A stretch of DNA of 64,000 nt. Source: an uncultured Lachnospiraceae bacterium. Its GTDB lineage: Bacteria; Bacillota; Clostridia; Lachnospirales; Lachnospiraceae. The stretch is from contig CANRMF010000001.1 in the NCBI GenBank assembly GCA_947631665.1, forward strand, positions 44,707 to 108,706. The letters run 5' to 3'. The first letter of the stretch is position 1. Each line of letters begins with the position of its first letter. Position numbers and translations under genes: made by a program. Shown here piece after piece: positions 33,634 through 62,252 of this stretch. The notes under the pieces are model-generated. The model made no database searches and was not told the origin of the DNA. It was given only the letters and a program-made list of their open reading frames with translations.

Positions 33634-33787
33634 TGCAGTTCTCCTTTAAATAAACTCGGTTTCTAATTTTAGCATAACAGGGAGGTTTTTTCAAGAAATT
33701 ATACGACGGGTTGAATACGCTTTTTTTGTATGTGAAAGCGCTTATAATTTTTTATATTTATTGCAAGAGCGTTTTGGATTTAAGTAA

Positions 33788-59300: not shown

Positions 59301-60296
59301 TTATGCGATTTGCGCCTGAACCGCCGTAATTGCCACAACGCCGACAATATCTTTTGCGCTGCAGCCGCGCGACAAATCATTGATTGGCTTTGCAATTCCC
59401 TGACAAAGCGGGCCATAAGCTTCTGCCTGTCCAAGTCTCTGCAATAATTTATAACCGATATTTCCTGCGTCCAAATCAGGGAATACCAAGACATTTGCTT
59501 TTCCGGCCACCGGACTTCCCGGCGCCTTGAATTCAGCAATTTCAGGTACGAGCGCCGCATCTGTCTGCAATTCCCCGTCCACGAGATATTGCGGATATTC
59601 TTTTTTAGCCAGTCTGGTGGCTTCAACGACTTTGGATACATCTGCATGAGCCGCGCTTCCGTATGAAGAATGGGAAAGCATCGCAACTCTTGCCTTTTCT
59701 CCTACGAGATATTCAAAAGATTCCGCGCTGCTTGCCGCAATATCAGCAAGCTGCTCCGGCGTTGGATTCTGATTTAAACCGCAGTCACCCATAACAAAAA
59801 CTCCGTTCGAGCCCATTTCTTTATTCGGCACACAGATTAGGAAAAAGGCGGATACCAGTTTGCTGCCCGGTTTCGTCTTTACAATCTGCAGCGATGGCCT
59901 CAATGTATTGGCTGAGGAATGGCACGCTCCGGAAACCACGCCGTCCGCATCGCCGTTTTTGACCATCATGCAGGCAAAATACATATGATCGCTGATTAAC
60001 ATGGCGTACGCCTGCTTTTCAGTCATTCCCTTTGCTTTTCTTAATTGATAAAACTGCTCGGCATATTGTTTTAGTTTATCTGACTTACGGGGATTGATTA
60101 CGCACAAGCCCTCCAAATCATAGTCTGCGCCGTATTTGTCAAATTCTTCCTCGGTCGCAAGTATGATAATATCAGCAAAATCTTCCTTTAAAATCTGTTG
60201 CGCCGCTTCATAAGTACGCCTGTCCATACCCTCCGGCAATACAATTGTTTTTCTGCTGGCTCTGGCCTTTTCTTTCAGTTCATCAATAAAATTCAT
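59301..60296 (-). CDS. pta: Phosphate acetyltransferase
   Basis: MNFIDELKEKARASRKTIVLPEGMDRRTYEAA; DGVVSGACHSSANTLRPSLQI; start trimmed to MNFID. Confidence 0.96.
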   Translation of the reverse strand: MNFIDELKEKARASRKTIVLPEGMDRRTYEAAQQILKEDFADIIILATEEEFDKYGADYDLEGLCVINPRKSDKLKQYAEQFYQLRKAKGMTEKQAYAMLISDHMYFACMMVKNGDADGVVSGACHSSANTLRPSLQIVKTKPGSKLVSAFFLICVPNKEMGSNGVFVMGDCGLNQNPTPEQLADIAASSAESFEYLVGEKARVAMLSHSSYGSAAHADVSKVVEATRLAKKEYPQYLVDGELQTDAALVPEIAEFKAPGSPVAGKANVLVFPDLDAGNIGYKLLQRLGQAEAYGPLCQGIAKPINDLSRGCSAKDIVGVVAITAVQAQIA

Positions 60297-60329
60297 AATA
60301 CACCTCACCTTGATTTATTCACTATTCCT

Positions 60330-60358
60330 ATCATACTCCATGTTGATTTTCACAGCAA
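60330..60358 (-). promoter_or_regulatory. pta promoter
   Basis: Minus strand TTGCTG-N17-TATGAT. Confidence 0.7.
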
Positions 60359-60400
60359 GTAGATATTTTCATATATATTTGTAAAAAAAGTAAATTGCGT

Positions 60401-60844
60401 ACATAAAAATCCTATGCAAAACATGAGTGGGAAGTAAAATTACATGCTATTTTGTGTAAATGGGTGAATTCTGCATGTAAAAATCCTATGAAAAATGTGA
60501 GTGGGAAACAAAATTACATGCTTTTTTGTGTAAATGAGTGAATTTTGCATGTAAAAATCCCATGTAAAACATGAGCTGGAAACAAAATTACATGCTTTTT
60601 TCTGTAAATGAGTGAATTTTGCATGTAAAAATCCCATGAAAAATATGAGTGGGAAACAAAATTACATGCTTTTTTCTGTAAATGGGTGAATTCTACATAT
60701 AAAAATCCTATAAAAAGTATGAGTGGAAAATAAAATTACATGCTTTTGTGTGTAAATGAGTGAATTTTGCATGTAAAAATCCCATGAAAAGTCTGAGCGG
60801 GAAATAAAATTACATGTATTTTTGCTTAAAAATGTAAAAAATAC
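60401..60844. repeat. Tandem repeat, six units with exact 74-bp period; seventh, degenerate unit begins at 60845
   Basis: Units start at 60401, 60475, 60549, 60623, 60697, 60771, 60845; substitutions only, no indels. Confidence 0.97.
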
Positions 60845-60870
60845 ATGTAAAAGCCCTCCGCAGAGTATGC

Positions 60871-60933
60871 AAGCCGGACAAAATTACATGCAGACCGGAC
60901 GAAATTACATGCAAGCCAAACGAAATCACATGG
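60871..60933. repeat. Three tandem 21-bp units continuing the 74-bp array
   Basis: AAGCCGGACAAAATTACATGC / AGACCGGACGAAATTACATGC / AAGCCAAACGAAATCACATGG. Confidence 0.93.
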
Positions 60934-60937
60934 AAAT

Positions 60938-60966
60938 TTGCAACTTCAATCTAATAATGTTAAAAT
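60938..60966 (+). promoter_or_regulatory. tmcAL promoter
   Basis: TTGCAA-N17-TAAAAT about 60 nt upstream of the ATG. Confidence 0.72.
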
Positions 60967-61025: not shown

Positions 61026-62252
61026 ATGAAAACAGTTGGAATTATTGCCGAACTGAACCCGTTTCACAACGGTCATCAGTATATTATTGAAAAGGCAAAA
61101 CAGATTACAAAAGCTGATAATGTCATTATTTTGTGCAGCGGAAATTATGTGCAGCGCGGTGCTCCCGCGATTATCAATAAATATGAACGGGCAAAAATGG
61201 CGTTGAAAAACGGAGCGGACGCAGTTTTTGAACTGCCGGTAGTTTATGCGACGGCATCTGCCGAGTTGTTTGCCAGAGCTTCTGTCGCATTTTTTGACCG
61301 GCTGAACTGCGTTGATTATTTGTGTTTTGGCTGTGAAGCCGACGATATGAAACTGTTGTCCACTGTGACAAAAATTCTTTATGAGGAGCCGCCGACATAC
61401 CGGCAGTATTTATCTTCTGCCACAGAATCCGGTTTATCCTTTCCGAAAGCGCGTCAGTATGCCGTAATTGAATATTGCAGAGAGACCGGTATCTCAGATC
61501 CGCTTTCCGTTGAATTGCTGTTATCCGCGCCAAATAATATTTTAGCCATTGAATATCTCAAAGCGCTCAAGTATTTTCATTCTAAAATTCAGCCGTTGGC
61601 TGTCCGCCGTCAGGGGGCCGGATATCATTCTTTGGATACCAATGCCCGATTTGCTTCCGCCACTGCCATCAGACGCGAAATTGAGCAGAATTCCTATCAG
61701 GAAATCAACGCCCATATTCCCGCTAACTGCCACAACGCGCTTGAAGCGGCTGACAAGGTGTTTTGGAAGGATTTCAATCTGCTTTTGGGCGAACGTCTGA
61801 TACGCCGTAATGATTTTTCTGATATTTTTGGAATCAATGAAGATTTGTCCAACCGGATTGAACGCACAAAATTCCAATATATAACGGTCAGCGATTATCT
61901 GGAACTTCTTCATTCAAAAAATTATACCTATTCAGCGATTTCCCGCGCGCTGCTTCATCTGTGTCTGGGAATAAAACAACAGCTGGTTGACGAATTTATC
62001 GGAAACGGATACCATTTTTACGCGCGGTTGCTGGGCTTTCGCAAAGAGTCCGGCATTTTATCGGAAATCAAGGAAAAAAGTTCGATTCCGCTGATTAGCA
62101 AACTCTCGGCTTTTTATCATCAATGCGATGAATCCGCGAGAAAAATGCTCGACCTCTGTATCGGCTGCGATCACCTTTACCGGCTGATTGTAACAGATAA
62201 AACCGGCAGGCATCTTCCGAACGAATTTGAAAATCAGATTATTATTCAATAG
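61026..62252 (+). CDS. tmcAL: tRNA(Met) cytidine acetate ligase / nucleotidyltransferase (DUF795, YlbM-like)
   Basis: MKTVGIIAELNPFHNGHQYIIEKAK; CSGNYVQRGAPAIINKYERAKMALKNGADAVFELP. Confidence 0.94.
   Translation: MKTVGIIAELNPFHNGHQYIIEKAKQITKADNVIILCSGNYVQRGAPAIINKYERAKMALKNGADAVFELPVVYATASAELFARASVAFFDRLNCVDYLCFGCEADDMKLLSTVTKILYEEPPTYRQYLSSATESGLSFPKARQYAVIEYCRETGISDPLSVELLLSAPNNILAIEYLKALKYFHSKIQPLAVRRQGAGYHSLDTNARFASATAIRREIEQNSYQEINAHIPANCHNALEAADKVFWKDFNLLLGERLIRRNDFSDIFGINEDLSNRIERTKFQYITVSDYLELLHSKNYTYSAISRALLHLCLGIKQQLVDEFIGNGYHFYARLLGFRKESGILSEIKEKSSIPLISKLSAFYHQCDESARKMLDLCIGCDHLYRLIVTDKTGRHLPNEFENQIIIQ

Follow-up and report, generated by a model that had tools for sequence, protein, structure and literature searches.

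Is a tandem array that fills the gap between two divergent promoters there to serve these promoters? The question is raised by the 64,000-bp stretch of Lachnospiraceae DNA analyzed here (the window), in which 74-bp repeats separate pta from tmcAL. The initial annotation had interpreted these repeats as a DNA-level element that controls or insulates the promoters of one or both genes. To answer the question, we examined the array itself, its kin in the same and in related genomes, and the helical arrangement of its sequence.

A 74-bp tandem array separates the pta and tmcAL promoters

TRF detected a repeat with a period of 74 bp at 60404-60824 (5.7 copies, 87% match, 0% indel, score 618); by this score and match, the array is far from chance. 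Steps of 74 bp counted from 60401 keep the units in exact register, in agreement with the period without length change that had been noted originally. The natural unit combines a dyad of 41 bp (TTACATR-N27-YATGTAA) with a linker of 33 bp, and the array contains six such dyads. The total extent of the array (60401-60850) corresponds to ~6.5 units with 87% match, followed by a tail with a 21-bp period that reaches 60932. Thus, of the six full units and degenerate seventh unit described initially, the register stands, while the seventh unit is mostly a separate stretch of 21-bp period, which has the AAATTACATGC core in common with the 74-bp units. The features of the locus are as follows.

59301-60296, minus strand: pta (phosphate acetyltransferase), left neighbor; start at MNFIDEL by comparison with the relative G011
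60320-60375 (about), minus strand: pta promoter-side block, kept in G011, which is array-less here
60401-60850, no strand: 74-bp-period array, with a partial leading unit (60401-60439) and six dyad units (60440-60850)
60440-60480, no strand: dyad 1, TTACATG-N27-CATGTAA, 41 bp
60514-60554, no strand: dyad 2, 41 bp
60588-60628, no strand: dyad 3, 41 bp
60662-60702, no strand: dyad 4, 41 bp, one mismatch in the right arm (CATATAA)
60736-60776, no strand: dyad 5, 41 bp
60810-60850, no strand: dyad 6, 41 bp
60867-60932, no strand: 21-bp-period tail (TRF), 3.1 copies of two helical turns each, on the AAATTACATGC core
60938-60966, plus strand: predicted tmcAL promoter (pattern match), TTGCAA-17-TAAAAT with TG before the second hexamer, kept in G011
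61026-62252, plus strand: tmcAL, right neighbor

The position between the two promoters was confirmed by the tmcAL promoter pattern and by the conservation of both promoter blocks in G011, and the array is likely to lie outside both transcripts. Two further statements of the initial annotation hold. The array does not encode a repeat protein, as a period of 74 bp is not divisible by 3 and the ORFs that cross arrays are incidental. It is also not a CRISPR array: the repetition covers the entire 74-bp unit with its linker, and what could pass for unique spacers is one linker repeated.

The array belongs to a dispersed family

A BLAST search of the window's own genome (G000), a check proposed with the initial annotation, matched 12 places and thereby revealed a dispersed family. 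G000 contains at least 15 arrays of the 74-bp kind, comprising 14 loci that we read and a fifteenth on contig 57. A 12-mer pattern had 34 matches in this genome versus 1 in the reversed control, and a three-unit pattern had 69+64 matches versus 0. Among 23 genomes of the genus, 6 carry arrays (G000, G011, G022, G002, G013, and G012), and none was found in the other 17. In a tree of tmcAL, noncarriers separate the carriers into two clades, a pattern that requires no fewer than two gains or losses.

The exact pattern had no matches in 298 other genomes, nearly all of them members of other genera of the family. A sequence profile applied to 199 other genera gave two marginal single matches, neither within an array, although absence is not proven by this profile, which may miss the arrays of Butyrivibrio. 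Butyrivibrio sp. NC2007 has 74-bp arrays of differing sequence, in which the strongest harmonic was 7 in all four arrays tested; in two adjacent 74-bp array families of this strain (L109:4781-5534 and L122:5643-6364), the A/T steps are in phase with the helix, seven turns to a unit. Arrays of 73 to 75 bp with related motifs and no clear phasing occur in SUG1361 and in a Eubacterium MAG. We discarded pattern matches in Schwartzia and Desulfarculaceae, which we read as CRISPR-like arrays, and several others elsewhere that were coding or unrelated repeats. A search for a phage or plasmid origin yielded no match, the six single pattern matches in viral contigs being chance-like in appearance. Our literature search for a 74-bp Lachnospiraceae repeat found no description. 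Separately, G000 has on contig C5 (L054:2767-2903) a 73-bp tandem duplication of hairpin-like, GC-rich inverted repeats that are 95% alike and unrelated to the 74-bp family.

Arrays are intergenic and prefer gene ends

All 48 clusters examined (44 with at least two dyads and 4 solo) are intergenic, and the short ORFs that overlap some of them look incidental. The 46 scorable clusters occupy 17 convergent, 25 codirectional, and 4 divergent gaps, compared to 20, 97, and 29 among control gaps; the ratio of convergent to divergent gaps thus differs between arrays (17:4) and controls (20:29) with p = 0.0035. The neighbors of the G000 arrays are unrelated and include CobW, LexA, transporters, NFACT, peptidyl-tRNA hydrolase, flavodoxin, an aminotransferase, and others; we looked for a gene function common to the array neighborhoods and found none. 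Array orientation was concordant with local GC skew in 13 arrays and discordant in 19, which indicates no polarity, and a KOPS- or Chi-like polar element was rejected.

These data bear on the proposed control or insulation of pta and tmcAL. The window array does lie exactly between two conserved promoters, and curved DNA upstream can influence promoters. However, in G011, the nearest relative, the gap is empty with both promoters kept, none of the 22 other genus genomes had a visible array next to tmcAL, and kindred arrays adjoin many unrelated genes and are seldom in divergent gaps (4 of 46 scored arrays). We therefore consider promoter control very unlikely. More generally, a repeat between two promoters should not be called a regulator without a genome-wide look.

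The units present a near-invariant pair of inverted motifs

All units keep the inverted pair TTACATR..YATGTAA, although the arrays are only about 62 to 80% alike. Across 33 arrays, within-array differences were 0.00 to 0.02 at the core motif columns (2 to 6 and 36 to 41) versus a mean of 0.18 over all columns; units were gathered with at most one motif mismatch, and this figure is therefore somewhat biased toward invariance, yet no array skips an internal unit. Spacing is equally regular: the motifs are 34 bp apart in 185 of 212 cases, and the following distance is 40 to 41 bp in nearly all.

Inverted arms could also signify a hairpin RNA or a cruciform, i.e., a REP/BIME-like element or a tandem RNA. 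The arms do permit an 8-bp stem, and two-sided changes exceed those in column shuffles (28 versus 18.6; 0/500). This excess, however, largely reflects a G/A difference between clades at column 7, and at most positions the arms of the same unit pair no better than arms taken from different arrays of the same clade. Moreover, the stem would enclose a 25-nt loop at −4.5 kcal/mol, no known RNA family (Rfam) was found within the arrays, and PF01797 (Y1 transposase) had no match in G000, G011, G002, and G012. On this basis, a hairpin or cruciform is highly improbable, and we interpret the arms not as a stem but as a putative recognition site in double-stranded DNA that is present twice. As candidate partners of such a site, neither a ParB/Noc-type paralogue nor a REP transposase tallied with array presence in the window's clade; G000 and G011 have one ParB each, as do most array-less genomes.

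In the window's clade, A/T tracts are phased with the helix at seven turns per unit

A unit of 74 bp corresponds to seven turns of 10.57 bp. AA/TT steps gather at columns 1, 10-12, 19-20, 28-31, 40-42, 51-53, 62, and 72-73, and in the G000 and G011 arrays their spectrum shows only one sharp peak, at harmonic 7 (74/7 = 10.57 bp). AA/TT power at 10.57 bp was 7.9, compared to 1.45 in dinucleotide shuffles, 1.8 in intergenic controls, and 1.25 in coding controls. Each of the 20 arrays in G000 and G011 reached at least the 96th percentile for AA/TT phasing with a phase coherence of 0.96, these arrays being of common ancestry and hence not independent tests; among further arrays, 11 of 12 reached the 95th percentile (1 of these duplicates an array of the 20). 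When the consensus was mutated to equal divergence, phasing fell to 3.7 (standard deviation 0.5; highest of 400, 5.2) versus 8.2 observed. Observed phasing thus exceeds that expected from simulated drift, supporting that it has been kept.

No other part of the 64-kb window is phased as strongly as the array (AA/TT power 8.1 versus at most 2.6 elsewhere). The array also has the highest bend in a wedge model, with ~86 degrees per unit and about 300 to 340 degrees per 296 bp (four units); these angles, which depend on dinucleotide parameters, are approximate, while the AA/TT spectrum is parameter-free. By computation, the G000/G011 arrays therefore have the A/T tracts in phase with the helix that characterize intrinsically curved DNA. 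The other carrier clade keeps motif and spacing, but its phasing is partial to moderate in G012 and in one G022 array and weak to absent in G013 and G002; curvature is thus not a universal property of the family. The near-invariant inverted motifs, their fixed spacing, the helix-phased A/T tracts, and the lack of covariation clearly favoring a hairpin support the original suggestion of a protein-binding or topological element acting at the DNA level.

The main functional rival to the reading that we develop below is that the arrays are strong sites for gyrase, or for another wrapping topoisomerase or NAP, which behind genes would relax transcription supercoils, as BIME-2 may do in E. coli. The bias of the arrays to convergent gene ends fits this possibility, and two units (148 bp) are about as long as one gyrase wrap. 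In E. coli, the arms of the gyrase motif have a period of 10.75 bp, similar to the 10.57-bp A/T phasing of the arrays, and BIME-2 elements serve as sites for gyrase (PMC6379681). On the other hand, gyrase is universal and the arrays are not. In addition, the near-invariant TTACATR pair matches, to our knowledge, no degenerate gyrase motif. Strong sites for gyrase or another wrapping protein of this kind therefore appear improbable to us.

Arrays turn over rapidly and are homogenized in place

The window and contig 1 of G011 are colinear with 79.9% nucleotide identity and differ in two arrays: the pta-tmcAL array is present only in G000, and a five-unit array of G011 is absent from the window near 33.73 kb.

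33720-33760, no strand: array-less window site; G011 has five units there (G011:C1:68317-68653)

Conservation of position in close relatives, which had been suggested as a check, accordingly varies. It fails for the pta-tmcAL site, empty in G011, and holds for other arrays, which occupy the same gap in both species with diverged units. Unit identity is 0.83 to 0.92 within an array, 0.75 to 0.80 between arrays, and 0.62 between G000 and G012. That units are alike within an array and diverged between arrays at the same gap points to concerted evolution. At a locus with a GH149-like gene and a gene for a 273-aa protein, G000 has eight units and G011 a single one, and G022 and G012 have arrays. 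Arrays thus grow and shrink in place, with the proviso that copy numbers at orthologous sites are compared here between species. Together, the range from one to eight units at one orthologous site and the homogenization within arrays bear out the initial view of the array as recombination prone. Some contigs of the G011 MAG (L065, L205, and others) end at or near arrays, and copy numbers from short reads may therefore be too low.

The 273-aa protein matches PADLOC PDC-S68 in its C-terminal part. Between G000 and G011, the block that contains its gene is 94 to 97% identical at the DNA level against a baseline of 80%; this high identity occurs in array carriers only, with arrays on one or both sides, and the block is possibly a recent exchange bounded by arrays.

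L286:5917-9638 (G000:C10), L284 (G011:C69), L285 (G022), and L208/L264 (G012): GH149-like/273-aa gene block

A 1.8-kb block that adjoins an array (L289:10873-12656 in G000:C16 and L288:17581-19352 in G011:C2) is 93% identical, compared to 76 to 84% for neighboring blocks, and colinearity at this locus is lost beyond the array. At L292:10569-15537 (G000:C9), ~5 kb present in G000 and missing from G011 begin directly beside an orthologous array.

Rapid turnover of array number and presence, the patchy phylogeny with its two or more changes, and within-array homogenization are also what would be seen if the arrays were a selfish or neutral spreading satellite, perhaps a MITE-like remnant, amplified by slippage and unequal crossing-over, with the motif kept for a recombinase or nuclease and not for the host. 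This main nonfunctional rival is further favored by G013, in which 74-mers lie within noncoding 1.1-kb elements that are bounded by TIRs and long terminal hairpins, are 83 to 97% alike at several loci, and often lie directly after a stop codon.

L209:2656-3779, L212:2692-3815, L213:2496-3618, and L218:2570-3760: G013 1.1-kb element enclosing 74-bp units, with TIR AAATTTCGGTTTGTAGGGG and two long hairpins at the termini

The unit can thus travel with a MITE-like element. Nevertheless, no TIRs, constant end modules, or clear target duplications surround the G000/G011 arrays, helical phasing has been held despite divergence, and spacing is exact across sequences only about 62% alike. We consider a purely selfish or neutral satellite a serious possibility, if an unlikely one.

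A possible architectural role in the chromosome

The arrays thus form a family with defined geometry, a near-invariant motif, phased A/T tracts, a bias to gene ends, and copy-number turnover. Our preferred explanation, to which we give slightly less than an even chance, is that they are dispersed, intrinsically curved satellites that carry a protein on their inverted TTACATR sites and have an architectural role in the chromosome. A seven-turn unit in which almost every turn places an A/T tract on one and the same face would be intrinsically curved and would present two inverted TTACATR sites at a fixed spacing of 34/40 bp. Four to eleven consecutive units would then form a bent coil on which a putative sequence-specific DNA-binding protein could sit. 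The likeliest effect would be architectural, setting the points of bending, looping, or wrapping in the supercoiled chromosome, mostly behind genes; the arrays would probably pin supercoils or carry a wrapping protein. Real bending, the protein, supercoil pinning, and a benefit to the host are what this explanation would predict from the computed features.

The proposed scale has a published parallel. The bent tip of a plectoneme comprises ~73 bp, pinning is decided by the intrinsic curvature of a stretch of about 70 bp, and a curved 75-bp insert pinned plectonemes when present in eight repeats (PMC6301789). At least 15 dispersed arrays, the bent design, and the inverted site pair together suggest that the window array probably shapes the chromosome rather than controlling pta or tmcAL. 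Counting against an architectural role are the 17 of 23 genus genomes that are array-less, the fast turnover of presence and absence, and the failure to find a candidate binding protein or an extra ParB. More doubtful is a general form of this proposal, in which "curved satellites" in some Lachnospiraceae are seven-turn modules that encode the positions of supercoils or loops and are read by a dedicated putative architectural protein binding inverted TTACATR. A wider distribution of this design is suggested by the Butyrivibrio arrays, which differ in sequence but likewise have units of 74 bp and seven turns.

Comparison with known repeat systems

Similar to E. coli BIME/REP elements, the arrays consist of dispersed intergenic motifs in alternating orientation and tandem stretches, are often at gene ends, and may have a topological role. 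They differ in lacking a supported hairpin, in the absence of a REP-type Y1 transposase from four of the six array genomes, and in having a unit of constant length (74 bp, seven turns) with phased A/T tracts. MIRU/VNTR-type repeats have intergenic units of 40 to 100 bp and variable copy number. The arrays share these properties, including copy-number variation at orthologous sites (eight units in G000 and one in G011, between species), but are strongly diverged in sequence with motif geometry and helical phasing kept.

BOX elements of pneumococcus have the structure boxA-boxBn-boxC (PMC3049150) and resemble the arrays in occupying many intergenic sites with tandem units whose number varies and, in G013 only, in a composite build with terminal modules. 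In contrast to BOX, no constant end modules surround the G000/G011 arrays, and double-stranded DNA sites account for the arrays better than an RNA fold such as that predicted for BOX. With regard to MITEs, comparison of the window array with the empty G011 site revealed neither a TIR nor a target duplication; TIRs are present around the G013 arrays. Sites of the parS, partition, or nucleoid-occlusion type similarly comprise a short near-palindromic site repeated in clusters, but G000 and G011 hold only one ParB, like most array-less genomes. The engineered curved inserts that pin plectonemes (PMC6301789) are likewise tandem repeats of ~75 bp with intrinsic curvature, here computed; the arrays, in contrast, are natural and have the near-invariant inverted site pair in addition.

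We infer that the arrays are a variant of interspersed tandem repeats, of the curved-DNA/BIME type in action and of the BOX/MIRU type in build. Bacterial interspersed repeats are usually viewed as palindromes or MITEs. Here, the sequence has drifted while the spacing of the site pair and, in the window's clade, the A/T phase stayed fixed, which is evidence for selection on DNA shape. The arrays therefore offer natural substrates for asking whether curvature positions supercoils in living chromosomes.
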